Assembly (NCBI GenBank): GCA_016209865.1
Contig: JACQVL010000352.1
Location: 1 to 12,179 of the forward strand
Length of the DNA stretch: 12,179 bases
Reading direction: 5' to 3'
Origin: Candidatus Latescibacterota bacterium
Lineage (GTDB): Bacteria > JAAXHH01 > JACQVL01
The notes below the pieces were generated by a model. It was not told the origin of the DNA, ran no database searches, and saw nothing but the letters and a program-made list of their open reading frames with translations. A program made the position numbers and the translations under genes. Positions 1 through 12,179 of this stretch are shown piece by piece. How positions within the stretch are numbered: the first letter of the stretch is position 1; every line of letters begins with the position of its first letter.

Positions 1-359
1 GGATTGGCTTACTACATGTTGGTATCAATATTTGGTTATGGCCCATATATAGTGGTAATCCGCACTGAACAAGCCCATCAAGTCAACTGAGGGACAACAC
101 CCGATCCTGGACAATGCTCAGAAAGCCCTGCGTCGTAAACAGCCACATGGATGAAGCTCCTGTCTCGGCGGGCGATGTGTCAGGCTTGACGTCTGAAGGA
201 CACGGATCGTCTCAAGAGTCGTCGACGATCGTCTCGACCGGTTCCTTTCGATCTTAGCTCGGCAGCGGCTGCTCTGCTGAACCGCGCGGTGGGCCACCGT
301 CGGGATTACCATGGGACAACTGGCTGGAACCTTTGCGCGCAAGCCGACCGAACCCGGCT
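1..359. other. Left-edge stretch without a convincing gene
   Basis: I see no gene here. The first 90 bases are richer in A and T than the rest of the window and are open in plus frame 1 up to a TGA at 88-90; the 29 encoded residues are hydrophobic in the middle and could be the end of a membrane protein that starts left of the window, but nothing confirms it. From 91 to 359 there is only an arginine- and serine-rich minus-strand frame with no family resemblance. A 9-bp direct repeat GATCGTCTC lies at 205-213 and 227-235. Confidence 0.5.
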
Positions 360-360
360 T
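341..360 (-). terminator. Hairpin abutting the toxin stop codon, weak terminator candidate
   Basis: AAGCCG (341-346) and CGGCTT (355-360) form a 6-bp stem with an 8-base loop. On the minus strand the stem begins at the last base of the DUF3368 toxin stop codon. No T-run follows in either direction, so it is not a classical intrinsic terminator; it could still slow 3' decay or end transcription with Rho. Confidence 0.2.
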
Positions 361-851
361 CATTCCCCGATAAGCGCCAGAGCTTGATTCATGACCGATC
401 CAGACAGGTACAAGCCGGAGAGCCGTAACCGTTCAAGAATGGGACGAGCGGCCGGGATTCTGCCACGCTGCTTGGCTGTGAGGATCAGTCCGAGCGTCCC
501 GCGGACTGGAATCCCCAGGGTCGCCGCACAGCGGCGAGCCGCCAGATCGTCTATGATAGCTTCAGTCCCTGGGTGCGCATGAGCCCACGCCAGTACAGCG
601 GATTCGCCAGGACCGAGATCCCAGACCTGAATCAGATGGGGAATGGGTGGCGGTTCGACAACGATTAGCCACGCAGTTTGCTCAAGTGCTTGAACCGTGG
701 GATCAGTGGGACCTCGGCGCTGAATCTCGGCCACCACCGGGGCGGGCACGACGAGTTCCGGGCCCATGACCTGGAAGAGATCGAGGAATCCCCCGCGCGC
801 GAACAAAATCAACGGTGACGCATTGACGACGGGGCGTGCCGGGTCAGCCAC
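360..851 (-). CDS. DUF3368 family PIN-like toxin
   Basis: A 163-residue protein of the DUF3368 family, PIN-like putative ribonuclease toxins that pair with UPF0175 antitoxins in type II modules. Visible family marks are VVNASPLI at residues 8-15 (Asn10 where classical PIN domains have the first Asp, which as far as I recall is common in DUF3368), VVAEI with Glu42, the LGPGESAVLA stretch with Glu83, IIDD with Asp101 and Asp102, and the GTLGLILTAKQRG block at 118-130. Length matches the family. The start is a GTG (849-851) that overlaps the antitoxin's last 8 bases, so the two are translationally coupled. The acidic residues of the PIN-like active site are present, so the toxin looks intact. 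RNA cleavage is inferred from the fold and untested here. Confidence 0.85.
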   Translation of the reverse strand: MADPARPVVNASPLILFARGGFLDLFQVMGPELVVPAPVVAEIQRRGPTDPTVQALEQTAWLIVVEPPPIPHLIQVWDLGPGESAVLAWAHAHPGTEAIIDDLAARRCAATLGIPVRGTLGLILTAKQRGRIPAARPILERLRLSGLYLSGSVMNQALALIGE

Positions 852-1095
852 GGGCCAGCTCTCGCTTCAGATCCTCCAGGTCCACGACAAAGCTCTCCAC
901 CTGCTCGCGAGCGAGGGCCAGGAGAAAGTCGGTGCGGTCCAATCCGGCGATGTCGGCGGCCTTTTCTTGGGAAACCTCCCCCCGGGTGTACCAGTAGATG
1001 GCGGCGGCCAAGCGCAGCTCGCGCACAAACTCATCCGGGGAACGGCGTAACGCAGAAAACACGTCTTCGGGCAGATCGAAGGTAACCGTCGGCAT
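844..1095 (-). CDS. UPF0175 family antitoxin
   Basis: An 83-residue UPF0175 protein. It opens with the beta-strand MPTVTFDLPEDVF, followed by the helical block DEFVRELRLAAAIYWYTRG (residues 21-39) and a helix-turn-helix-like segment VSQEKAADIAGLDRTDFLLAL (41-61), the layout of small DNA-binding antitoxins. It should neutralise the downstream DUF3368 toxin and probably represses its own operon. I chose the ATG at 1093-1095: GGAG lies 7 bases upstream, and the family N-terminus begins exactly here. The upstream in-frame extension (to 1173) crosses the likely promoter and shows no family similarity. The stop overlaps the toxin start by 8 bp. Confidence 0.87.
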   Translation of the reverse strand: MPTVTFDLPEDVFSALRRSPDEFVRELRLAAAIYWYTRGEVSQEKAADIAGLDRTDFLLALAREQVESFVVDLEDLKRELARG

Positions 1096-1344: not shown

Positions 1345-1373
1345 TTGACATCGTGGTCTCAATACGGTATCCT
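1345..1373 (+). promoter_or_regulatory. Sigma70 promoter of the MNT/HEPN operon
   Basis: A perfect -35 TTGACA (1345-1350), a 17-bp spacer and a -10 TATCCT (1368-1373). Transcription would start near 1380, about 60 bases before the ATG at 1440. This placement argues against the earlier in-frame GTG at 1353, which lies inside the promoter. Confidence 0.7.
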
Positions 1374-1439
1374 GTTCTTACGGAATATGGGGCCCGGTTC
1401 ACTGACCTCGGTTCGTGGCTCGACGTTGACACTTCGACC

Positions 1440-1802
1440 ATGCCATCATTCGATACACTTAAGACGCTCACCACGACGCAACGTCAGGCGTTACAGGCCG
1501 TCGCGCGCAGACTCCAGGCGGAATTTGAGCTGGAGGCGCTCATCCTCTATGGCTCAGTCATTCGGGGCGAGGCCGATGAGGAATCCGATCTCGACGTGCT
1601 CGTCCTGACCACCACACCCCTACCCCGGTCTGTGCGACATCGAATCACGGATATTGTCTTTGAGATCAATCTCCAGTACGGGACGAATATCAGTACGGTG
1701 GTCGTCGACCGGGTCACGTGGGAATCCGGCCCCTTCTCGGTGCTCCCGATTCATGACACGATTCTGGCAGAAGGGATCCGCTTCTCACCGGTTCCTGACT
1801 AA
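1440..1802 (+). CDS. MNT-domain nucleotidyltransferase, antitoxin of a HEPN/MNT module
   Basis: A 120-residue minimal nucleotidyltransferase (MNT). The GSx10DxD signature is complete: Gly38-Ser39, ten residues, then Asp50-Leu-Asp52, with a third acidic residue at Asp90 in STVVVD. An intact triad suggests an active enzyme. In characterised HEPN/MNT pairs (type VII, MntA of Shewanella) the MNT protein transfers AMP groups to a tyrosine of the HEPN toxin and so neutralises it; that role is inferred here. The start at 1440 is preferred because the promoter's -10 box lies at 1368-1373 and the in-frame GTG at 1353 would be untranscribed. No clear Shine-Dalgarno precedes it. The HEPN partner begins 30 bases downstream in the same orientation. 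Confidence 0.85.
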   Translation: MPSFDTLKTLTTTQRQALQAVARRLQAEFELEALILYGSVIRGEADEESDLDVLVLTTTPLPRSVRHRITDIVFEINLQYGTNISTVVVDRVTWESGPFSVLPIHDTILAEGIRFSPVPD

Positions 1803-1832: not shown

Positions 1833-2249
1833 ATGAAGTCGGAGGCCCAGCGTGCTCATGTCGTGCGGTATTGGTGGGCCCAAGCGCACGCGAGCCTGGC
1901 GTCGGCGCGACGAGAACTTGAGGCGGGAGTGCCGACCTTTGCGATCAATCGGCTCTACTATGCCGCCTTCTATGGGGTCAGTGCCGCGTTACTGGATCGG
2001 CAGAAGGCCTTTCGGAAACATACCGGCGTGCGCGCGGCGTTCCATCGAGAATTCATGAAGACGGGCCTGCTCGATGTCGAATGGGGTAAGTTCTATGACC
2101 AGCTGTTTGAAGACCGGCATGAGGGCGACTACATCGCGTTAATGACCTTCGACAGCGCGTACGTCGAACAGCAGTTGACCCGGTGTACGCAATTCTTAGA
2201 GAGGCTTCGGCCCTTGATCGCGTCACTGGCTGATGGACACTCACCCTGA
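1833..2249 (+). CDS. HEPN domain protein, toxin of the HEPN/MNT module
   Basis: A 138-residue all-helical HEPN-domain protein of the COG1895 type. Family marks are WWAQAHASLASARRELE (residues 14-30), INRLYYAAFYGVSAALL (38-54), the FRKHTGVRAAFH block (60-71) and the RHEGDY motif (95-100). HEPN proteins are often ribonuclease toxins with an RX4-6H active site. Here no clean RX4-6H is visible at the usual C-terminal position: the arginine (Arg95) is followed by Asp99-Tyr100. This may be a subfamily feature, and Tyr100 may correspond to the tyrosine that MntA modifies. The start ATG has GAGG 9 bases upstream. It is the second gene behind the promoter at 1345-1373, with 30 bases between the genes. 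Confidence 0.82.
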   Translation: MKSEAQRAHVVRYWWAQAHASLASARRELEAGVPTFAINRLYYAAFYGVSAALLDRQKAFRKHTGVRAAFHREFMKTGLLDVEWGKFYDQLFEDRHEGDYIALMTFDSAYVEQQLTRCTQFLERLRPLIASLADGHSP

Positions 2250-2423
2250 ACGGGGGATTCCTGCTCGCATTGACCCTGTAGCAGAATTGTAGCAGATGGT
2301 CCACCAATAGGGGCAACTTTCAGCAAGCAACCGCAACTCAATCGAAGTGTGGATATGAGAGATAAGACGAAAGACACCAATGAAATATCAAGTGCTGCAA
2401 GGCGATGCATCACAGGAATGTCT
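2250..2423. other. Non-coding stretch at the island end, with a short direct repeat
   Basis: No gene is visible between the HEPN stop and the tRNA remnant. TGTAGCAGA occurs at 2277-2285 and again at 2288-2296, an 11-bp period, about one helical turn. Tandem 9-10 bp repeats near a tRNA attachment site recall integrase arm-binding sites, but two copies are thin evidence. Short open frames here are interrupted and match nothing I recognise. Confidence 0.4.
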
Positions 2424-2480
2424 CTGTCTTGAGGGGGCAGTGGGCGTAAGCCTGTCCGGGTTCGAATCCCGGCTTCGGCA
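2424..2480 (+). pseudogene. 3' half of a tRNA-Leu(GAG) gene, likely attachment-site remnant
   Basis: The sequence folds as the 3' part of a class II tRNA. The anticodon stem CTGTC (2424-2428) pairs with GGCAG (2436-2440) around the loop TTGAGGG, whose centre gives the anticodon GAG (2431-2433, leucine). A long variable arm follows (2441-2455, GGGC/GCCT stem), then the T arm CCGGG-TTCGAAT-CCCGG (2456-2472) and the acceptor strand CTTCGGC plus discriminator A (2473-2480). The matching 5' acceptor strand (GCCGAAG) and D arm are absent upstream, so this is not a complete gene. No CCA is encoded. Remnants running from the anticodon arm to the 3' end are typical of tyrosine-integrase attachment sites in tRNA genes. 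Confidence 0.8.
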
Positions 2481-2491
2481 TGTTGAGAGAC

Positions 2492-2526
2492 AAGCACTTA
2501 GATCATCGTGATCTGGGTGCTTTTTT
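2492..2526 (+). terminator. Strong intrinsic terminator behind the tRNA remnant
   Basis: AAGCACTTAGATCA (2492-2505) pairs over 14 positions with TGATCTGGGTGCTT (2509-2522), including two T-G wobbles, around a 3-base loop, and ends in a T-run (2521-2526). It lies 11 bases after the tRNA 3' end and is probably the original terminator of that tRNA gene, which makes DNA to its right the likely original chromosome. Confidence 0.88.
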
Positions 2527-2629: not shown

Positions 2630-3766
2630 TCAGCGTGGTGCGACCCGGAATCGGGTGACGACCTCGTCATTCAACTCGAACCCCAGGCCTGGGCGACGGG
2701 GCACGTCGATGAAGCCGTCCGGATCGACCTGGATAGGTGGGACCAACAACTCCGAGATGATGGGGGAATCCGGAAACGCCATCGGCGTCTCGAAGTACGG
2801 CATATTGGGCAGTACCGCGGCCAGGTGGAGTTCTGCCGCCACGCCGACCATGTGGCACCAGGCATGGGGCACGCAGATCAACCCCCGACGATAGGCAGCT
2901 TCCGCGATCCGGGTGATCTCCCGCATCCCGCCCGACCGGACTGCGCTGGGCTGGACGACGTCCACCCGGCCTTTCTCCATGATCTCGTCAAACTCGAACC
3001 GGGTGGTGAACCCCCAATCCCCGATCGCGATGCGGGTGTCCACCGCATCTGCCAGCCGGGCATACCCGGCCAGGTTGTCGGCGGGCAGCGGGGCTTCGAT
3101 GAAGAACGGCCGGTACAGCTCGAGCGCCCGGATGGTGGCGAGCGCCTGGCCCACGTCCGACCAGTGGTTCTGGACATCGATCAGCAAGTCCCGCTCCTCG
3201 CCGATCGTTTCACGTACCGCCCGGACGATCTCGACATCATGCTGGACGCTCACATGCGCGAACCCGCCCGGCCATTCCTCTAATTTCATCGCCCGAAACC
3301 CCCGGTCACGGGCCAGCGCAAACCGTTCGACGATCTCCGGGATCGTGTCCCCCGGTGGGTAGACGGTCGCGTACGGGACGACCTTGGATTTGACCTCCCC
3401 CCGGTCGCGCACGGTGCAGCAGGCCGTCCAGATGAGGTCACAGACCGGTCTGCCGAGGGCTTTCCCGGCGAGATCCCACAGGGCGGTCTCGACCGCGCCG
3501 ATGGCGGCGATCGTCACCCCGCGCCGGCCGAACAGGCCGGTGGCGGCGTACATCTTCTGCCAGAGCCGCTCGACCTGCAGGGGGTCCTCGCCGTGGAGGA
3601 GGTCCTGCAGGCCGCCGTCGGTGCGGAGGATGGCCTCGATGACCAGGGCGGGGGATTCCGCCTGTCCGATCCCAGTGAGGCCGTCATCGGTGTGCACGCG
3701 CACCAAGGTCTCCTGAGCCGCGCCAGGATCGACCAGATGAATCGTCTCGAGATGGGTGATCCGCAT
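2630..3766 (-). CDS. Mandelate racemase/muconate lactonizing family protein (enolase superfamily)
   Basis: A 378-residue enolase-superfamily protein of normal length: N-terminal capping domain (about 1-125, with TDDGLTGIGQAES at 27-38), then the TIM barrel and a C-terminal DVPRRPGLGFEL return strand. These enzymes bind Mg2+ and abstract the alpha proton of a carboxylate, commonly as sugar-acid dehydratases or racemases. Expected landmarks are Lys161, metal ligands Asp197 and Glu224, and the general base His301 in VPHAWCH. Three positions are unusual: the second Lys of the KxK motif is Glu163, the third metal ligand is Asp250 rather than Glu, and the Asp that normally pairs with the catalytic His is Ser274. 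It is last in a six-gene operon, 37 bp after the M81 gene. The substrate cannot be named. Confidence 0.85.
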   Translation of the reverse strand: MRITHLETIHLVDPGAAQETLVRVHTDDGLTGIGQAESPALVIEAILRTDGGLQDLLHGEDPLQVERLWQKMYAATGLFGRRGVTIAAIGAVETALWDLAGKALGRPVCDLIWTACCTVRDRGEVKSKVVPYATVYPPGDTIPEIVERFALARDRGFRAMKLEEWPGGFAHVSVQHDVEIVRAVRETIGEERDLLIDVQNHWSDVGQALATIRALELYRPFFIEAPLPADNLAGYARLADAVDTRIAIGDWGFTTRFEFDEIMEKGRVDVVQPSAVRSGGMREITRIAEAAYRRGLICVPHAWCHMVGVAAELHLAAVLPNMPYFETPMAFPDSPIISELLVPPIQVDPDGFIDVPRRPGLGFELNDEVVTRFRVAPR

Positions 3767-3803
3767 GAAGGGGACCCCTTTCTGCTCTCAGTGTACTCGG
3801 GAT

Positions 3804-5270
3804 TTACATCTCGTCAAAGGGATACAGCTTGCGCCCCAATCGGTGGAACGCCAGTTTGCCGTGTGCCGGGTTATGCACACTCGGTTCTGCGACGACAAAG
3901 ATCGCCCCGGCCCAGGCTTCGAACCCCGCCCGGAAATGCGCCGCCGATTTGACGCCGATATACTTCATCGTCCGCGGGTCCAGACCGAGCGTTCGCGCAA
4001 ACGCGGTATCGAAGGGCTGCTCACGCCGACTGACCAGCAGCACGTGAATCTCCCCGTACTGGATGTGCGCGGAAGCCCCCATGTTCCCCTTCAGTCCAGC
4101 ATACATCGGGCCATCATAGGAGAAATGCCCCTCTGAAAGCGCTTTCACTTCAACTCCCATCCTGCACGGTGCTCCCTGCAGTGGAGAGGACTTTCCCCCT
4201 ACCTCCAGGTCCAGGGTCGCTCCGACGCCCGCCTTCTGGCAGTGCGCCACCGCTTCCGGATCGACGATATACAGCACGCAGGCATCCTCCAACCCGGCGT
4301 CCAGGAAGCTCTGCAGCATCCCGGTGCTGTCACCGGGCGACCCTCCCCCGGTATTGTCATCCCGGTCTGCAAAGATGACCGGAAACACGCCGGCGCGTTG
4401 CGCTTGCTCGATGGCCTCACGGGTGGATGGCCGGTCGAGCTGCCAGTCCGCCCGGCGCGCGAAGATCCATTCCCCTAACTCATCGGCATACGCCCGGGCC
4501 AATGACCGGTCATTCTCCGTGACGATATACACCGACGCGCCCATGTCCGGCACGTCTGCCAGGGGATAACACGTGGCAATCGACCCGCAGACCACTCCGG
4601 GCCGGGCTTCGATGCGATGCAATTCCGCGATAGCCTCACGCATGGGAGGATGAGCAGTGACCTGGTTCATGCCCCAGACCATCGGAATTTGGTGCAAGGC
4701 CATGATCGGGCGGAGGCCATCCCGGTGGATTCGGACGAGCACGTCGGCGCATTCCCGTCCGCGCGCCGCCATATCGATCTCCGGGTAGGTCTCCCGTCCG
4801 ATCAACGCATCCGCCATCTCTACCATGCGACGGGACACGTTGGCGTGAATGTCCAGTTGTCCGACGATCGGCACCCGCGGCCCGACCAGCTCGCGCACGG
4901 CGCCCAGGATGTGGCCTTCTCCGTCGTCGATTCCTTCCGCCACCATGGAGCCGTGCAACTCCAGCAGGACGCCGTCAATCCGGCCAGCCGCAGCGATGCC
5001 CCGGAGCAGGTCATCCAGAATGGTATCAAAGATCTCTCGCGGAGTGGGTCCGCTCGGCTGTGGCTCTGCATAGACGGTGGGGATGAGTTCAAACCCATGC
5101 GCTTCTGCCCCTTCAATAAACCCTCCTATCGGGGTATTCGCATGACGGAAGACGTCGAGAATCTCCTGCCCATGCAGGTACCCAAACCGCTCGTGATAAC
5201 TGTCCCAGGTGGTGAGCACCGGGGTGAAGGTGCTGGTTTCGTGGCTGATTGCGCCCGTGACCACTCGCAT
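3804..5270 (-). CDS. M81 family metallopeptidase (MlrC-like)
   Basis: A 488-residue protein covering both halves of the M81/MlrC family: N-terminal metallohydrolase domain (about 1-290) and C-terminal MlrC domain (about 298-480). Motifs include SHETSTF (9-15), LLELHGSM (102-109), QLDIHAN (138-144) and DNTGGGSPGDST (305-316). The founding member, MlrC, is a zinc enzyme that cleaves linearised microcystin and its tetrapeptide; most homologues lie in catabolic clusters with unknown substrates, so toxin degradation should not be assumed. Glu11, His106, Asp140 and His142 are the probable metal or catalytic residues. The usual TYPH(I/V)D motif reads TYPEID (161-166), with Glu164 replacing the histidine. 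AAGGAG lies 8 bases before the ATG. The upstream isomerase gene ends 36 bp away. Confidence 0.9.
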   Translation of the reverse strand: MRVVTGAISHETSTFTPVLTTWDSYHERFGYLHGQEILDVFRHANTPIGGFIEGAEAHGFELIPTVYAEPQPSGPTPREIFDTILDDLLRGIAAAGRIDGVLLELHGSMVAEGIDDGEGHILGAVRELVGPRVPIVGQLDIHANVSRRMVEMADALIGRETYPEIDMAARGRECADVLVRIHRDGLRPIMALHQIPMVWGMNQVTAHPPMREAIAELHRIEARPGVVCGSIATCYPLADVPDMGASVYIVTENDRSLARAYADELGEWIFARRADWQLDRPSTREAIEQAQRAGVFPVIFADRDDNTGGGSPGDSTGMLQSFLDAGLEDACVLYIVDPEAVAHCQKAGVGATLDLEVGGKSSPLQGAPCRMGVEVKALSEGHFSYDGPMYAGLKGNMGASAHIQYGEIHVLLVSRREQPFDTAFARTLGLDPRTMKYIGVKSAAHFRAGFEAWAGAIFVVAEPSVHNPAHGKLAFHRLGRKLYPFDEM

Positions 5271-5306
5271 GTCAACTGCTCCTTAAAGAGAGAAAGAGCG
5301 CACGAT

Positions 5307-6059
5307 CTATTTGCCCATCTGCCTGAGGGTGTGGAGGCAGCGCTCGACACACTCTAAGGGTGGAGAGGCATAGCTCTCCTGCTCCACGATATACCATTCC
5401 GTCCCGCCCACCCCCTCACACAGCCGGAAGACCTCGTCCCACGGGACGTCCCCCTCCCCGATCAGCGCCGTCTCGTTGGTCGCCGAGTACTCCTTGAGGT
5501 GCACCGTGACGGCGCGGCCAGGGTACCGTTCCAGGAAGGGGAGGACCTGGGCACCTCCGTGGAGCGCGTTCCCTATGTCCACCTGCATGATCACCGCCGG
5601 GTCGGTGTGCCCGAAGAAGGTGTCCCAGGGTAATTCGCCTTCCAGCGGTTGAAACTCTACAGTGTGGTTGTGATAGCCGGGGCGCATCCCGTATGGGCGC
5701 AGGCGCTCCGCGATGCCGTTCATCAGCCGGGCCGTCTCCAGCCACGCCGCCCGCGAGCTGCGCCGCGCTTCGGGCAACCCCGGCACGATGAGCAGGCGGT
5801 TGCCGAGCGTCTGATGGAACTCGACACTCCGGTCGAGTTCCGGCCCCAGCAGCGTGTCGAGACTGACGTGGGCCCCGGCGACCCGCAGGCCCAGGTCGTC
5901 CAGCATCGTCCGGAGGGTGGCGGCCTCGAAGCCGTAATACCCGGCAAACTCCACGCCGTCGTACCCCATCTTGGCGACGGCCGACAGGGTGCCGGGGAGA
6001 TCGCGGGCACAGTCCTGGCGTACCGAATACAGTTGCAGCGCGATCGGGAGACGTGCCAT
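5307..6059 (-). CDS. Sugar phosphate isomerase/epimerase family protein (AP endonuclease 2 fold)
   Basis: A 250-residue TIM-barrel protein of the xylose-isomerase-like family (IolE, D-tagatose 3-epimerase, Nfo relatives). Family marks are IALQLYSVRQD (6-16), MGYDGVEFAGYYG (31-43), the YHNHTVEF stretch (129-136), MQVDIGN (159-164), VTVHLKEYS (184-192) and WYIVEQESY (222-230). Probable metal ligands are Glu135, Asp161, His187 and Glu226, all present. It likely isomerises or epimerises a sugar, keto-inositol or similar polyol. I start it at the ATG 6057-6059, because AAAGGAG (6067-6073) is 7 bases away; the ATG at 6065 would be too close. PhyH lies 72 bp upstream and M81 36 bp downstream. The substrate is unknown. 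Confidence 0.88.
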   Translation of the reverse strand: MARLPIALQLYSVRQDCARDLPGTLSAVAKMGYDGVEFAGYYGFEAATLRTMLDDLGLRVAGAHVSLDTLLGPELDRSVEFHQTLGNRLLIVPGLPEARRSSRAAWLETARLMNGIAERLRPYGMRPGYHNHTVEFQPLEGELPWDTFFGHTDPAVIMQVDIGNALHGGAQVLPFLERYPGRAVTVHLKEYSATNETALIGEGDVPWDEVFRLCEGVGGTEWYIVEQESYASPPLECVERCLHTLRQMGK

Positions 6060-6066
6060 CGTCATG

Positions 6067-6073
6067 CTCCTTT
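6067..6073 (-). promoter_or_regulatory. Ribosome binding site that fixes the isomerase start
   Basis: AAAGGAG on the minus strand. It leaves 7 bases to the ATG at 6059 but only one to the ATG at 6065, so the shorter protein beginning MARLPI is favoured. Confidence 0.7.
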
Positions 6074-6131
6074 CTGGCCCGTTGGGATACCCGTGTCTCT
6101 TGCGTGTCACACAGACATCTTCGCCCCGTGC

Positions 6132-7001
6132 TCAAGGAGTATGCAGACGAGACTCAACGGGCGGCCATATCCGCGGGAAATACGGCCCCGTGAACCGATC
6201 CCCTTCCTGGACATACGGCCCCAGGAGATCGGCGTTGGGATGATGCCGCCCGTGTTGCGTGAAGCCGCAGTCGGCCGGCATCATGTGGATCACAAACGAC
6301 AGGCGCGGCGCCGTGGAGAGGTTCGGCCCGGAGCCATGGAACGTGAGCGCGTGGTGGAAACTGGCCTGCCCCGCTTGGAGCAGGCACGGTTCGTCGATCC
6401 AGTCCCGGCCCGCTTGGCGATATTTCGCTTTCAGGGCCGCCAGGTCGTGCTCCCCAAACGTCGCCGCGTCGTCACACAAGCCCCAGTGATGCGACCCCAC
6501 GATCGTGCGCATGCCGCCGTTGGACAGGTCGGTCTCCTGCAGCGCCACCCACGCGGTGCAGAAGTTGGCGGTGTTGGCGCACTGCCAGTGGGCGTAATCC
6601 TGATGCCATCCCACATTCCCCGCCGGTTCCCCCGTCCCGGCCGGCCCCAGGCCGGGCTTGCAGAGGATTTGGTCATGCCACACCCGCACTTCATCCGTCT
6701 GCATCAGCACCGACCCGATGTAGCCGATCACGGGAGTTTTGATGACCTCCCGCATCGCGCGGTTTATCCACCAGCCGTTACACACCTGGCGGAGGGCGGG
6801 GCTGTCCTCGGGATAGTTCGGAGGGCTGAGCCAGTGCAGACCGTCGAAATCGCGTTCCCCACGGCAGATGCGGAGGACTTCCTGTCGGAGCGCCGCCACT
6901 TCCTGGGCGTCGAAGAGCGCCGGACTGATCCAGACTCCCCTGTCGTGATACCGGCGAATATCGTCAGTGGTGATCGTGAGATCGAGCGGGGACAACGGCA
7001 T
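6132..7001 (-). CDS. PhyH family Fe(II)/2-oxoglutarate dioxygenase (operon member)
   Basis: A 289-residue member of the phytanoyl-CoA dioxygenase (PhyH) family, non-haem iron enzymes that hydroxylate small molecules using O2 and 2-oxoglutarate. The iron-binding facial triad is visible: His133 and Asp135 in GWHQDYAHW, and His222 in LTFHGSGPN. Arg233 in APRLSFVIH is the probable 2-oxoglutarate carboxylate ligand. The double-stranded beta-helix core spans about 95-242, so the enzyme looks complete and active. Its start has AAGGGG 6 bases upstream. It lies 31 bp after the lactonase and 72 bp before the isomerase, so it probably oxidises an intermediate or the initial substrate of this pathway. 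The actual substrate cannot be read from the sequence. Confidence 0.88.
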   Translation of the reverse strand: MPLSPLDLTITTDDIRRYHDRGVWISPALFDAQEVAALRQEVLRICRGERDFDGLHWLSPPNYPEDSPALRQVCNGWWINRAMREVIKTPVIGYIGSVLMQTDEVRVWHDQILCKPGLGPAGTGEPAGNVGWHQDYAHWQCANTANFCTAWVALQETDLSNGGMRTIVGSHHWGLCDDAATFGEHDLAALKAKYRQAGRDWIDEPCLLQAGQASFHHALTFHGSGPNLSTAPRLSFVIHMMPADCGFTQHGRHHPNADLLGPYVQEGDRFTGPYFPRIWPPVESRLHTP

Positions 7002-7032
7002 GGCAGGCCCCTTCGGTGCGCTCTACGCGTCC

Positions 7033-8130
7033 CTACGTCGTCCGCGGCATCATCGCGATACAGACAGGTGCCGGGACGTCCGCCGTGTGGCCGGTGAACA
7101 CAAGCTGACCTGTCTGTTCATCCAGGCGAAAGACGACGACCCGGTCGCTATGATTATTGGCGGCGAGTAAGAAGGCCGCCGTCGGGTCGATGGCCAGGTT
7201 CCAAGGCCATGCTCCCTGGGCGGGCGCATGACCGGCCGGGGTCAGTCGCCCCGTGGCCTCGTCGATGAGGAAGAGCGCGATACTGTCGTGGCCGCGATTG
7301 GAGCCATACAGCACCCGGCCCGACGGACCGACCCGGATGTCCGCGCTGTACGTGGCGTCCGTCCATCCGGCGGGCAGCGTGGAGGTCGTCTGCAATTCCG
7401 TGAGCGTGCCCTGCGCCGCGTCATACGCATAGGCGACGATGGTGTTGTCGAGCTCATTGATGAGAAACGCGTACCGGCCGTTGGGATGGAAGATGATGTG
7501 CCGCGGCCCGGCCCCGGCCGCGACCTGCACCCACGGCGGGTCATGCGGCGTCAGGACTCCCTGGGTCGCATCGAACCGGTACAGCCGGAGTTGATCGAGT
7601 CCCAAATCGGCGGCCACGACGTAGCGATTCGTCGGATCCGGGACGATCGCATGCACGTGCGAGCTGTCCTGCCGTTGCGGGTTGACGCTGGAGCCGGTGT
7701 GCTGGACGACCGCGGTCGCGGGCCCCAGCCGGCCGTCCGCCTGGATGGGCAGGACGGCCACGCTGCCGGAGCTGTAATTGGCTGTGAACACATAGCGACC
7801 CGTCTGATCGAGGCTCAGGTAGCAGGGCAGGGTGCCGTGCGAGGGCTGCCGGTTGAGCCGCGTCAGGCCGCCCATGACGGCGTCGATGGCAAACGCGCTG
7901 ATCGCCCCGCCGGGCTGGCCGTCACACTCCTGGACCGCGTTGGCCGCATACAGGTACCGGTGCCGGGCATCCAGCGCCAGAAAGAAAGGATGGTCGCCTT
8001 CGGTCGCCTTGCTGATGAAGTCCAGGGCGCCTGAGGCGGGGTCGAGACGATAGACGTAAATCCCATCGCGGTCGTCGTTCGTCCACGTGCCGATATACAC
8101 CAGGATCGCTGTGTCACGTTGCTCTGCCAT
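7033..8130 (-). CDS. Lactonase family protein, seven-bladed beta-propeller (Pgl/YbhE type)
   Basis: A 365-residue protein of the PF10282 lactonase family, whose best-known member is E. coli 6-phosphogluconolactonase Pgl. Repeated propeller blades are readable: YIGTWTNDDRDGIYVYRLD (12-30), LALDARHRYLYAANA (51-65), LSLDQTGRYVFTANYSSG (105-122), SSHVHAIVPDPTNRYVVAAD (156-175), GPRHIIFHPNGRYAFLIN (208-225), IRVGPSGRVLYGSNRG (265-280) and NLAIDPTAAFLLAANNHSD (311-329). There is no signal peptide, so it is probably cytoplasmic. In this operon it may hydrolyse a lactone made by a dehydrogenase or oxygenase step and feed the open acid to the enolase-superfamily enzyme; that order is inference. The start has GGAG 9 bases upstream. 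ABM ends 66 bp before it. Confidence 0.9.
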   Translation of the reverse strand: MAEQRDTAILVYIGTWTNDDRDGIYVYRLDPASGALDFISKATEGDHPFFLALDARHRYLYAANAVQECDGQPGGAISAFAIDAVMGGLTRLNRQPSHGTLPCYLSLDQTGRYVFTANYSSGSVAVLPIQADGRLGPATAVVQHTGSSVNPQRQDSSHVHAIVPDPTNRYVVAADLGLDQLRLYRFDATQGVLTPHDPPWVQVAAGAGPRHIIFHPNGRYAFLINELDNTIVAYAYDAAQGTLTELQTTSTLPAGWTDATYSADIRVGPSGRVLYGSNRGHDSIALFLIDEATGRLTPAGHAPAQGAWPWNLAIDPTAAFLLAANNHSDRVVVFRLDEQTGQLVFTGHTADVPAPVCIAMMPRTT

Positions 8131-8196
8131 AATCTCTGACTCCGTGCTGAGAGGGTGGTCATTCGGCTCGCATGCCCTGCACCGGCGAAACTCCCG

Positions 8197-8514
8197 TTAC
8201 GTCCACTCGTCATCCGGGGGCCAGATGTTGTGACTTCCCGCTCCAGCGCCCTGGGGACGCTCCTCCACCCAGTCTTTCACGGTATCCCGCCACTTGATGA
8301 AATGCGGCGTCTGGAGGTGCGCCTGGAAGGCGGCCTCGTCCGTGTAGACCTCGTAGAGCCAGATCCGTTGCGGGTCGGCCCCGTCCTGGATGACGTCAAA
8401 CCGCAAGCATCCTGGCTCATGGCGGACGGAGCCGCGCGCGTCGTCCAGCATGGCTGCGATGAATGGTTCTTTGTAGCCTTGTTTGATCTGAATCGATGCC
8501 ATGATGATGTACAT
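8197..8514 (-). CDS. Antibiotic biosynthesis monooxygenase (ABM) domain protein, LsrG/YgiN-like
   Basis: A 105-residue ABM-fold (dimeric alpha/beta ferredoxin-like barrel) protein. The pattern MASIQIKQGYKEPFIAAM, then HEPGCLRFDVIQD (32-44), WLYEVYTDEAAFQAHLQT (52-69) and PHFIKW (70-75), resembles LsrG (phospho-AI-2 isomerase) and YgiN (quinol monooxygenase). Such proteins act as small cofactor-free oxygenases, isomerases or ligand-binding dimers; which applies here is not evident. It is the first gene of the operon. AGGAGG lies 4 bases before the ATG at 8512-8514, so this start is preferred to the internal Met5. The last 15 or so residues (Gly-rich, then WPPDDEWT) are not obviously part of the fold. 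Confidence 0.85.
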   Translation of the reverse strand: MYIIMASIQIKQGYKEPFIAAMLDDARGSVRHEPGCLRFDVIQDGADPQRIWLYEVYTDEAAFQAHLQTPHFIKWRDTVKDWVEERPQGAGAGSHNIWPPDDEWT

Positions 8515-8555
8515 GGTGCCTCCTTTAGGGTTAGCGCGCTGTAGGATGCGTTAAG

Positions 8556-8583
8556 GGTATAGCCGAATCCGACGGCTTGTCAA
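8556..8583 (-). promoter_or_regulatory. Sigma70 promoter of the six-gene catabolic operon
   Basis: On the minus strand a perfect -35 TTGACA (8578-8583), a 16-bp spacer and a -10 TATACC (8556-8561). It lies about 40 bases before the ABM start. I see no comparable promoter in the short gaps between the six downstream genes, which suggests one transcript of about 5.9 kb. Confidence 0.65.
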
Positions 8584-8635
8584 GTCATCTTTTCCAGGAT
8601 GCCATCGACAAAATTCAGTGCACCCTCAGAATCAC

Positions 8636-8664
8636 TTGATCCGTTGAGGCTGTGTGCCTATCTT
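8636..8664 (+). promoter_or_regulatory. Candidate promoter of the divergent PhyH gene
   Basis: TTGATC (8636-8641), 17-bp spacer, TATCTT (8659-8664); four of six matches in each box. Transcription would begin about 45 bases before the ATG at 8716. It does not overlap the minus-strand promoter, so both could be active together under a shared regulator in the 50-bp gap. Confidence 0.4.
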
Positions 8665-8703
8665 CTCCGTGTCCAGTCCCTGGTCATGTTGTCCACTGTC
8701 GAC

Positions 8704-8710
8704 AAGGAGG
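8704..8710 (+). promoter_or_regulatory. Ribosome binding site that fixes the divergent PhyH start
   Basis: AAGGAGG, 5 bases before the ATG at 8716. It rules out the 39-residue in-frame upstream extension beginning at 8599, which also crosses the candidate promoter. Confidence 0.8.
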
Positions 8711-8715
8711 GAATC

Positions 8716-9630
8716 ATGGTGCGTTACGACCACGTCCATCGAACGTTTGATTGCGACCCGACACTGACGGATACGCAGGTTCTGGACTTCTGCCGAAACG
8801 GGTTTCTGCTTCTTCCAGGGGTTGTCCCGGATGCGATCAATCGGCGAACCTGCGATTATCTGAACGGCACGCTTCCGGCCCAACCCAGTTACATTCCCGA
8901 TGGACTGACTCTGGAGGATCTGGAGCGCATTCGCGCCTCCCATGAACCCAGCACCATCCTGCTGGAGGAGTGGTTTATCGACCATGTCCTGCTCAATCTC
9001 CAGGTGGCAGGGGTCTTACGGTCGTTGCTCGGGAAAAACGCGGGTCTGCCGGTTCTGGTCAGTCATCACCGGGTGGAATGTCCGGCTGCAGCCCAGGGAT
9101 GGCATTACGATGCCGATCACCTCTTCGGTCCTGAAATCAATTTTGTCGAAGTCTTTTACTTTCCCCAGGACACCCCGCTGGAGCTGGGGCCCACCGAACT
9201 GGTGTCCGGGTCGCATCTCAGCCCCATCCGTCGTGAGGCAAGCGACAAAGGGGTGCCAACGACCGGCCCTGCGGGCACAATCGGCATCCACCTCCAGAAT
9301 ATCCTCCATCGCCGGGGGGAGTCGACCGCCGCAGGAATCCGTCACATGCTGAAATACAGCTACTGGCGGACGGAACCGCCGAAACGCGATTGGATCACCG
9401 AACCCACGTTTGATTTTCGAACGGTCTCCTATGGAGGACATGGCACCGCCCGATACGTGGCGCATATGTTCTACTGGCTCTGCGGAAAGGGAAAGGAATA
9501 TCGCATCATCGGGGGGCAGGCGTGGCCCTGGTCGAGCAAAAATCAGATCGGCCCGTCCTACGGCTTCGGGAAGACGGAGGGATACCTGCCGAACTGGCGA
9601 AAGAATAACCCGGATGATTACGCCGCGTGA
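8716..9630 (+). CDS. PhyH family Fe(II)/2-oxoglutarate dioxygenase (divergent)
   Basis: A 304-residue PhyH-type oxygenase, only loosely similar to the other two in this window. The iron triad reads His130 and Asp132 in GWHYDADH, with His198 in NILHRRGES as the distal ligand and Arg209 in GIRHMLKYSYWR as the probable 2-oxoglutarate binder. The core motif block LELGPTELVSGSHLSP (155-170) is the usual PhyH strand before the distal His. The C-terminal 70 residues are aromatic and longer than in the other two. Translation starts behind a strong AAGGAGG site. It is transcribed away from the catabolic operon with about 200 bp between start codons, so joint regulation is plausible. Function beyond hydroxylation of a small molecule is unknown. 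Confidence 0.85.
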   Translation: MVRYDHVHRTFDCDPTLTDTQVLDFCRNGFLLLPGVVPDAINRRTCDYLNGTLPAQPSYIPDGLTLEDLERIRASHEPSTILLEEWFIDHVLLNLQVAGVLRSLLGKNAGLPVLVSHHRVECPAAAQGWHYDADHLFGPEINFVEVFYFPQDTPLELGPTELVSGSHLSPIRREASDKGVPTTGPAGTIGIHLQNILHRRGESTAAGIRHMLKYSYWRTEPPKRDWITEPTFDFRTVSYGGHGTARYVAHMFYWLCGKGKEYRIIGGQAWPWSSKNQIGPSYGFGKTEGYLPNWRKNNPDDYAA

Positions 9631-9648
9631 CCGCCGATGTCGTCACGC
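9625..9648. terminator. Hairpin between convergent genes, weak terminator candidate
   Basis: GCGTGAC (9625-9631) and GTCACGC (9642-9648) form a 7-bp stem with a 10-base loop that spans the stop codon of the plus-strand PhyH gene, in the 67-bp gap before the convergent PhyH gene. There is no T-run on either strand, so a bidirectional or Rho-assisted role is only possible. Confidence 0.25.
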
Positions 9649-9697
9649 CGTCGCGTCCTGCGCGAGGTGGACGTCGCCCGAGTCGAGTCGGCTGCAC

Positions 9698-10552
9698 TCA
9701 ATGCACTGGCCGAGTCCAACACTCCGGGGAGTAGGGTTCGCGGTCAAACAACGTTTTCCGCTCCGGGCCGGCGCGCTCGAGCCACGCGGCTGGAATCTCT
9801 TGCGTGTATCGGTGGGGAGGGCCCGCCTCTTTGAAGATATCGATGACAAAGAGGCGGAACGGCTGCGGGGAATCGAGCGGCTTCGGCTCTACGGCGTGGA
9901 ACATTCTCGCATTCAGGTACACCATGCTCCCTGGCGGCAGTTCAAGCTGTTCGACCTTGAGCTCGCGCTGGGCTTGATGGTTGAATGCGCCGCTCAGCAG
10001 TTTCTCAGGGGTCACTTCGGCGGTCGGCGCGATTCGATGGCTCCCCGGGATGACGGAGAGACTCCGGTCTCCGCGAGTGAACCCGTTTGGATAGTAAAGA
10101 ATCTGGATGTACCCCTTCTCCCGTTCTGCGAGGTTGACCGCGTTGGTATGAAACCAGTGATGATGATCCTGATGAAACCCGATCGGCCCGGCGCCACGGA
10201 GCGCCACGTTCAGGGCCGAATGGCAGAAGTGGTACGCCGGGCCGAGCGTCGCCCGCAGCAGCGCGGTGACGAGAGGCGCGTCGATGAGTCGGTCTGACCA
10301 GACCCCTCGGTCGTTCCACGGCCGGATGAAGTAGATGGAGGGGTTGCTCAGGCCGGCGCGTTCCGCAGGCGATAACGAGAGAAACTCCCGGACAGGAGCA
10401 TAATCGAGGATCTCCTCCGTCAGTCCCGCCAGGCCGGCCTCTGTGAAGACCTCTGGAAACGCGACGTAGCCATCCCGATGGAAAGCAGCCAGCGCGTCGG
10501 CCGGAGGCGTATCGATGCGGAAGATCGGCGGTTCTGTGGACTGACTCATCAT
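9698..10552 (-). CDS. PhyH family Fe(II)/2-oxoglutarate dioxygenase (downstream of hupE-like gene)
   Basis: A 284-residue PhyH-type oxygenase. The facial triad is His127 and Asp129 in GFHQDHHHW and His219 in ARMFHAVEPKP, with Arg233 in FRLFVIDIF as the probable 2-oxoglutarate ligand. The N-terminal helix ALAAFHRDGYVAFPEVF (20-36) is the typical family opening. Two adjacent ATG codons (10552 and 10549) follow AGGAGG by about 6 bases; either could serve. The first ATG overlaps the TGA of the HupE-like gene as ATGA, which could couple their translation, but that overlap may come from a frameshift in the HupE gene. It converges on the plus-strand PhyH gene. Substrate unknown. Confidence 0.87.
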   Translation of the reverse strand: MMSQSTEPPIFRIDTPPADALAAFHRDGYVAFPEVFTEAGLAGLTEEILDYAPVREFLSLSPAERAGLSNPSIYFIRPWNDRGVWSDRLIDAPLVTALLRATLGPAYHFCHSALNVALRGAGPIGFHQDHHHWFHTNAVNLAEREKGYIQILYYPNGFTRGDRSLSVIPGSHRIAPTAEVTPEKLLSGAFNHQAQRELKVEQLELPPGSMVYLNARMFHAVEPKPLDSPQPFRLFVIDIFKEAGPPHRYTQEIPAAWLERAGPERKTLFDREPYSPECWTRPVH

Positions 10553-11940
10553 CCTGTCCCTCCTGGAGGTAGGGGGCTACTGGACACCCCGCCTGATGAA
10601 TGTTTCCACGACCTGCGCTGTCGAACCTTACTTCCCACCCACCAGCTCAGACCCGAACCGACCAGGATGAGCATCAGCCATCCCGTCGCGCTCCCCAGCA
10701 GCGCGGCGTCGACCGACGGCCACCGAAACTCGTACTGGCGCAGCACGGCGGCGCGACCGGTCATCCAGTGCCAGCCGGTGTGGGTCACGAGCGCCGACAG
10801 AATGATCGTCCCGACCCGCTCCTTGACGACGAACCGGTACAGCCCCTCCAGTGCCGGGACGAGGAACGCGAGGACGAGGAGTTGCCCCAGCTCGACGCCC
10901 ACGTTGAACGACAGCAGGGCGGTCAGCATGTGGGCGCCGCCGAACTGCAGCGTGTCTCGCAGGGCGAACGAGAACCCGAACCCGTGAACGAGGCCGAACC
11001 CGAAAGTGACCATCCACCGGCGACGCAGGTTGGCCCCGACGATGTTCTCGAGGGCGGTGTAGACGATCGACACCGCGATCAGCGTTTCGACCAGCGGCGG
11101 AAACCACAGCATGTCCGGCGCGAGGCCGGCGGCCGACGCGATGAGCGTGATCGAGTGCCCGACCGTGAACGCCGTGACGAGGGCGACGAGCGGCCGGAGC
11201 CGCCGGAACGGGATCACGACGCAGAGCAGGAACAGCAGATGGTCGAGACCGTCCAGGATGTGCGAGAACCCTAACGCCACGAACCGCAGGGCGGCCTGGT
11301 GCCAGCGGGGGTCGAGGACGATCAGGCTCGGATCGCCGGTGTACTCGAAGGCGCGAACGGCGCCGCCGGGCGGCAGGAATCGCAGCACGGTGACGACTCG
11401 CAACGCCAACCGGTCGAGGCCGGGGTTGATGGAGAATTGGGATCGATCCGACTGAATCGGGTATTCGAACAGCGCGTCGAGCAGCGCCTGCTGCCACACG
11501 AGTTGCGTAGAGTCAGGCAGCCGCGGGCCGGTGACGTGCGCTAAGGCGTCGTCGTAACTGCTGAAGGCTCTGTCGGTGGGGATTGACGCGCGGACGGCGA
11601 CGAGTTCCGGGGTCGCCAGGCGGCGGCCATCCTCGTACAGCGCCGCCTCGTGACCGATCCACAACATGGCCGCGTGGCGCAACTCGGAATCGGACCGCGC
11701 GAGGTTCAGGTAGCCCGGTCCGTACAACGGGAGTTCCATGTCACGCATGGCATGGAGCGGCACACGCACGAGCAGCCGCAGCCGGTGTCCTTCCGGCTTG
11801 ACGAACGCCTGAATCGTGATGTCGCCCGGGATATCGTGAGCGGACAGGCGGGCCGGAAGGGCAAACACCAGCACTGCCGTCAGGGCCGCCGCGATGCTCG
11901 ACGTGACGCCGCCGCGATCGTTCCTCAGCACGGCTCTCAT
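10549..11940 (-). CDS. HupE/UreJ family membrane protein with large extracytoplasmic N-terminus
   Basis: A 463-residue protein. Residues 1-34 look like a signal peptide ending LSA before HDIPGD; about 35-215 is an extracytoplasmic beta-rich domain (TIQAFVKPEGHRLRLLVRVP); about 216-436 holds roughly six or seven membrane helices with the family's histidine and acidic motifs: GFSHILDGLDHLLF (224-237), FTVGHSIT (258-265), VETLIAVSI (284-292), FGLVHGFGFS (315-324), FNVGVELGQ (345-353) and THTGWHW (386-392). HupE and UreJ relatives are linked to nickel or cobalt uptake, but this long form is uncharacterised. I start it at the ATG 11938-11940, where GAGG lies 8 bases upstream and the signal peptide begins. 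The last 25 residues are Gly/Ser/Pro-rich and look like read-through past a lost stop. The NHL gene ends 10 bp upstream. Confidence 0.82.
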   Translation of the reverse strand: MRAVLRNDRGGVTSSIAAALTAVLVFALPARLSAHDIPGDITIQAFVKPEGHRLRLLVRVPLHAMRDMELPLYGPGYLNLARSDSELRHAAMLWIGHEAALYEDGRRLATPELVAVRASIPTDRAFSSYDDALAHVTGPRLPDSTQLVWQQALLDALFEYPIQSDRSQFSINPGLDRLALRVVTVLRFLPPGGAVRAFEYTGDPSLIVLDPRWHQAALRFVALGFSHILDGLDHLLFLLCVVIPFRRLRPLVALVTAFTVGHSITLIASAAGLAPDMLWFPPLVETLIAVSIVYTALENIVGANLRRRWMVTFGFGLVHGFGFSFALRDTLQFGGAHMLTALLSFNVGVELGQLLVLAFLVPALEGLYRFVVKERVGTIILSALVTHTGWHWMTGRAAVLRQYEFRWPSVDAALLGSATGWLMLILVGSGLSWWVGSKVRQRRSWKHSSGGVSSSPLPPGGTG

Positions 11941-11950
11941 GACGTGGCCT

Positions 11951-12179
11951 CTACTTCGAGGCCCTCGGCCACACAACGCCCTGGTTCTTCTGGGTAACGG
12001 GGCCCAGGCCTTTGTACACGAACTTCTGCACGCGTTTGCCTTCGTACGTCTCGGTGGTGTAGTTGTTGCCCTTCGAATCGGTGGCAATACTGTGCACGCC
12101 GAAGAACTGGCCGGGCTGGCGCCCGCAGTCGCCGAAGCTCGTCAAGATCGTCATCGTCTTGCGCTCGATGATGTACACC
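11951..12179 (-). CDS. NHL-repeat beta-propeller protein, C-terminal part only (cut by window edge)
   Basis: The gene runs off the right edge; only about 76 C-terminal residues are visible. They hold one NHL-type propeller repeat, FGDCGRQPGQFFGVHSIATD, followed by KGNNYTTETYEGKRVQKF, then a short tail ending WPRASK. This pattern is that of secreted six-bladed propeller proteins annotated as NHL-repeat or peptidyl-alpha-hydroxyglycine lyase-like; no catalytic claim can be made from the fragment. The GTG at the edge is only an in-frame codon, not a supported start. Its stop is 10 bp before the HupE-like start on the same strand, so the two are probably co-transcribed from a promoter outside the window. 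Confidence 0.75.
   Translation of the reverse strand, partial: VYIIERKTMTILTSFGDCGRQPGQFFGVHSIATDSKGNNYTTETYEGKRVQKFVYKGLGPVTQKNQGVVWPRASK

Follow-up and report, generated by a model that had tools for sequence, protein, structure and literature searches.

Introduction

Islands integrated at tRNA genes (tDNAs) carry a signature that was set out in Islander, namely a 3' end fragment of the tDNA together with an integrase beside the intact copy (PMC4383910). In its anticodon-centred islands, the intact tDNA stands at the integrase end and the displaced 3' fragment lies elsewhere; its criteria call for both on the same replicon, 2-200 kb apart (PMC4383910). The locus reported here resembles these islands in the placement of the intact tDNA and of the displaced fragment, and likewise has a tyrosine integrase beside the tDNA and a block of identity that starts in the anticodon arm and stops shortly after the tRNA end; the extent of this block (59 bp) assigns it to the anticodon-centred class. 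The tDNA and its fragment are found here on different draft contigs. No direct precedent for islands at secG/tRNA-Leu was found in the literature searched.

The window, i.e., the whole 12,179-nt stretch that was analysed, is one contig (C312) of a draft Candidatus Latescibacterota genome (3.75 Mb, 356 contigs), and it was this assembly that was searched for counterparts of the features in Table 1. We conclude, with a probability of about 93%, that a half tRNA gene in the window marks the distal junction (attR) of an element whose site-specific insertion target was tRNA-Leu(GAG).

Results

The tRNA half and its intact counterpart

Positions 2424-2480 of the window correspond to the 3' 57 nt of tRNA-Leu(GAG), comprising the anticodon arm, the long variable arm, the T arm and the 3' acceptor strand, while the 5' half is absent. 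The piece reaches the 3' end of the tRNA, as an Islander end fragment does, and occupies the gap between the genes at 1833-2249 and 2630-3766, where it overlaps no conserved coding sequence. ARAGORN found no complete tRNA in the window, and an Rfam search of the window gave no match at the gathering score; sub-threshold Rfam matches, including one to Y RNA, were rejected as similarity to the T arm. A terminator scan located a stem of 14 pairs with a T tail 11 bases past the tRNA end, the sole terminator found in that region, and the folding energy of 2481-2530 was -20.8 kcal/mol. The first-pass annotation of this locus, made by eye, had given these coordinates, the count of 57 bases, the GAG anticodon and the 11-base spacing, all of which proved correct on comparison with the intact gene and in the terminator scan; its statement that the 5' half is missing was borne out by ARAGORN.

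The fragment sequence occurs at only one other place in the assembly (contig C241, 11119-11226; E = 8.5e-28 including flank). There, ARAGORN identified a complete, 85-nt tRNA-Leu(GAG) at 11091-11175, the single intact copy in the genome, whose positions 29-85 match window 2424-2480 base for base. The full block of identity is 59/59 bp (window 2424-2482 vs C241 11119-11177), opening with the 5' strand of the anticodon stem and closing two bases beyond the tRNA end, and its edges are sharply mismatched (TCT before and T after the block in the window, ACG and C on C241). The genome therefore holds an intact tRNA together with its cognate fragment. An exact match of this length between the fragment and an intact tRNA elsewhere in the genome lies far beyond chance, and identity with such abrupt edges is the pattern to be expected of an att identity block, unlike the drift that a duplicated gene would undergo. 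A tRNA-like sequence arisen by chance, or a functional small RNA that owes nothing to the splitting of a tRNA, could be entertained in that the piece folds, precedes a strong terminator and resembles Deinococcus Y RNA below the threshold (a match that reflects its T arm); given that the tRNA-Leu(GAG) of this very genome is identical at 59/59 positions, however, this explanation is exceedingly improbable. The first-pass annotation had also anticipated an intact tRNA-Leu(GAG) sharing these 57 bases, and an integrase beside it. Both were found, but on C241 and not to the left on the window's own contig, since the assembly breaks inside the element.

Table 1. Features of the window that bear on the proposed attR junction and its two flanks.
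Feature	Position	Strand	Evidence
End of a DDE-transposase insertion sequence inside the element	1..102		97%, 96% and 98% identical copies at C40, C260 and C114
Element cargo: DUF3368 protein	360..851	-	Pfam DUF3368, E 3.3e-14; PADLOC PDC-S70, E 9e-56
Element cargo: UPF0175 antitoxin candidate, overlapping the 360..851 gene	844..1095	-	Pfam UPF0175, E 6e-24 (longer ORF 844-1173); PADLOC PDC-S70
Element cargo: small nucleotidyltransferase, MNT-like antitoxin candidate	1353..1802	+	Pfam NTP_transf_2, E 1e-7
Element cargo: HEPN-domain protein, partner of the nucleotidyltransferase	1833..2249	+	Pfam HEPN, E 2e-14
Putative integrase arm-type sites of attR	2277..2296	+	Two TGTAGCAGA units 11 bp apart; same 20-mer at C241 11240-11259
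attR identity block, with the probable crossover inside	2424..2482	+	tRNA-Leu(GAG) 3' fragment 2424-2480 plus TG; 59/59 identity with C241 11119-11177
Terminator probably native to the tRNA-Leu gene and moved along with the fragment	2492..2522	+	14-pair stem, T run; weak homology to the hairpin that follows the intact tRNA
Probable chromosomal flank B', metabolic genes	2630..12087		Pfam: MR_MLE, MlrC/M81, TIM-barrel, PhyH-type, lactonase, HupE_UreJ_2

The native locus and the integrase end

On C241 the intact tRNA lies directly after secG, which is preceded by pfkA and tpiA (Pfam); mreB and a cell-wall gene cluster, identified by reading translations, are located further upstream. tRNA-Leu(GAG) also follows secG in every order-level relative whose examined stretch covers both genes, and C241 is therefore the native locus. 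Apart from an integrase fragment in one relative (see below), no element genes were found near the tRNA in the relatives examined.

Approximately 110 bases past the tRNA end, and convergent with it, C241 encodes a tyrosine integrase of 345 aa (11286-12323; Pfam Phage_integrase, E = 2e-34; phrog_1 integrase, E = 2e-69), the second component of the Islander signature. Two other matches to it in the genome have E values of 2.7e-12 and weaker. The integrase gene is followed by an excisionase-like HTH gene (HTH_17) and by a Prim-Pol/AAA_25 gene (primase/helicase), whose product, presented as the element's replication protein, measures 697 aa (L030 12984-15077) and hints that the element may be an integrative plasmid or a satellite and not a passive island.

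The hairpin after the rebuilt tRNA on C241 differs from that in the window and is weaker (-14.5 vs -20.8 kcal/mol on similar lengths), yet the two terminators retain residual similarity, with a local score of 30 vs a maximum of 29 in 2000 shuffles. Since the weaker hairpin keeps this similarity to the native one, a related host may once have been the source from which the element acquired both a tRNA end and its terminator. The same weak homology, running past the tRNA into the terminator, is what would be left behind if part of the gene, its 3' end with the terminator, had simply been duplicated with no integrase involved. Such a duplication, however, fails to explain the integrase next to the intact copy, the repeats common to both places (below) or the abrupt end of the block of 100% identity, whereas decayed terminator homology is explained by an att copy that the element carried from a related host. 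We consider a plain duplication very unlikely.

Paired repeats at both junctions

A 20-mer, TGTAGCAGAATTGTAGCAGA, occurs at window 2277-2296 and at C241 11240-11259, and these were the only two sites in the 3.75 Mb at up to 2 mismatches; a control search with the reversed 20-mer returned 0 sites. The copies lie on the element side at both junctions, preceding the identity block by 127 bp in the window and following it by 62 bp on C241, in the same orientation relative to the block. None of 200 shuffles of the window contained two such 9-mers. Because two 9-bp units at an 11-bp period adjoin a tyrosine integrase gene, we read the 20-mers as putative integrase arm sites. At the sequence level, paired putative arm-type sites are thus present on the element side of both attL and attR. 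On the two draft contigs, the position of the integrase 3' of the intact tRNA and the equal orientation of the repeats to the block are consistent with the Islander configuration, in which the 3' fragment would stand downstream of the tDNA in the same orientation. An exact scan of viral contigs with the 20-mer gave one match (IMGVR_UViG_3300046710_000457; L102, 3199-3218), ~550 bp past the 3' end of a phage integrase that is distantly related (27%); this match is possibly a coincidence, or else a shared arm motif.

The identity of the arm 20-mers at the two junctions also bears on whether the window might be the junction of a second element that shares the integrase type and att site, as a tandem copy or a remnant, and not the far end of the element seen on C241. 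No contig joins the two ends, both contig edges are assembly breaks, and tandem arrays at one tDNA have been described by Islander (PMC4383910). Attempts to join the contig ends gave no connection: no second copy of the C241 end exists in the assembly, and the window starts with an insertion-sequence end that is repeated elsewhere. However, the assembly contains only one fragment and one intact tRNA, and a single integrase close to the C241 type, the other two matches being those weaker ones noted above. Together with the identical 20-mers, these counts make a second element unlikely, although it is the alternative to which we give the most weight.

Element cargo and the left end of the window

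Homology to the three copies of the insertion-sequence end stops abruptly at approximately window position 102, and the copy at C40 adjoins a DDE_Tnp_4/DDE_Tnp_1 transposase gene; this repeat plausibly explains the contig break. Between it and the proposed attR lie two gene pairs (360-2249), whose assignment to the element as cargo is supported. We take the DUF3368 protein to be a PIN-type toxin candidate, and both the DUF3368/UPF0175 and the nucleotidyltransferase/HEPN pairs to belong to toxin-antitoxin-like families. The true start of the nucleotidyltransferase gene may be the ATG at 1440. If both ends belong together, the element is at least ~7.3 kb in size (4.88 + 2.42 kb). No virion structural genes were found in the ~7.3 kb of the element that is seen, its middle being missing from the assembly.

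The right flank

The junction geometry implies that the DNA to the right of about 2482-2483 is host chromosome, which would begin by ~2483 at the latest. Within 2630-12087, no mobility genes were found among the genes scanned, and neither an arm repeat nor an integrase is present. Synteny gave no corroboration, the downstream genes in order-level relatives being different from those of the window, and no tRNA was found near homologues of the 2630-3766 gene in the flanks of 26 contig loci and two order relatives. GC content showed no clear difference between the two sides of the junction.

The enolase-superfamily (MR_MLE) gene at 2630-3766 is 78-82% identical to genes in metagenome-assembled genomes labelled Caldilineaceae, Poribacteria and Zixiibacteriota. 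Since homologues this similar occur across phyla, the gene appears to have spread horizontally. Its protein has 34 matches in the genome. Two phytanoyl-CoA dioxygenase (PhyH) genes assigned by Pfam, and a third that is similar by eye, lie within 5 kb (6132-7001, 8599-9630 and 9698-10552).

Related loci in bacteria and viruses

A similar arrangement was found in a relative of the same order (G013, contig C52; L067), in which secG is followed, as here, by tRNA-Leu(GAG) and a convergent integrase fragment (60% identical over 112 aa), the contig ending inside the integrase. Between tRNA and integrase there is an 11-bp direct repeat, TTGTGCAGTAATTGTGCAGT, the sequence of which differs from the repeat described above. 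A viral contig (IMGVR_UViG_3300009127_000324; L103) encodes an integrase 39% identical to that of C241; beyond it come TGTGTCG repeats with an 11-bp period, then a terminator-like hairpin and the 3' part of tRNA-Leu(GAG) from the anticodon loop onward, with a second repeat pair on the far side of the tRNA part. As in the window, a terminator stands after the tRNA half. Relative to the tRNA part, the repeats start at -139/+115 on the viral contig and at -147/+121 here; the blocks begin at slightly different tRNA positions, and the viral arm sequences (TGTGTCGTTTTTGTGTCG) differ from ours. The layout of L103 is attP-like: it appears to be attP or a junction, in contrast to the two resolved chromosomal ends seen here.

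More distantly, the Pseudomonas syringae phages Cruim01 and Medea1 carry tyrosine integrases 33% identical to that of C241, each followed by the 3' half of a long-variable-arm, tRNA-Leu-like sequence that starts in the anticodon arm. They differ from the present element in being full dsDNA phages and in using another leucine isoacceptor (fragment GATTTAGGTTCC; anticodon TAG by eye). It is conceivable, if rather doubtful, that an integrase clade spread across bacterial lineages and phages has become specific to that half of leucine tRNAs (GAG, TAG) which contains the anticodon arm, carrying a substitute terminator of its own so that the rebuilt tRNA gene still terminates.

Discussion

The intact tRNA, the integrase, the shared 20-mer and the occurrence of the same layout in a relative and in a viral contig all support the integrated-element junction that the first-pass annotation had proposed. 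In the sequence of events that we favour, the attP of the element would have included its own copy of the tRNA's 3' 57 nt, with paired 11-bp arm sites on either side. The tyrosine integrase encoded at the element's other end would have recombined attP with attB in the chromosomal gene after secG, with strand exchange within the shared block, probably in its anticodon-loop part. The full tRNA would thereby have been rebuilt at the secG side with the element's copy, giving attL on C241, while the host's original 3' part and native terminator would have been pushed to the far side, giving the attR of the window. The DNA to the left of 2424 would then be the end of the element, bearing the two toxin-antitoxin-like pairs. 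In this scheme we infer the crossover position, the origin of both contigs from the ends of one element copy and the role of the integrase as agent.

The junction is that of a well-resolved but ordinary tDNA island of the Islander type, and the process itself is textbook. A half tRNA spotted by eye correctly pointed to a split island. One boundary of a mobile element is thereby placed to within 59 bp in an uncultured lineage, its two toxin-antitoxin-like pairs are assigned to the element and not to the host, and an integrase is matched to its target, the tRNA-Leu(GAG) after secG, and to its likely arm sites.
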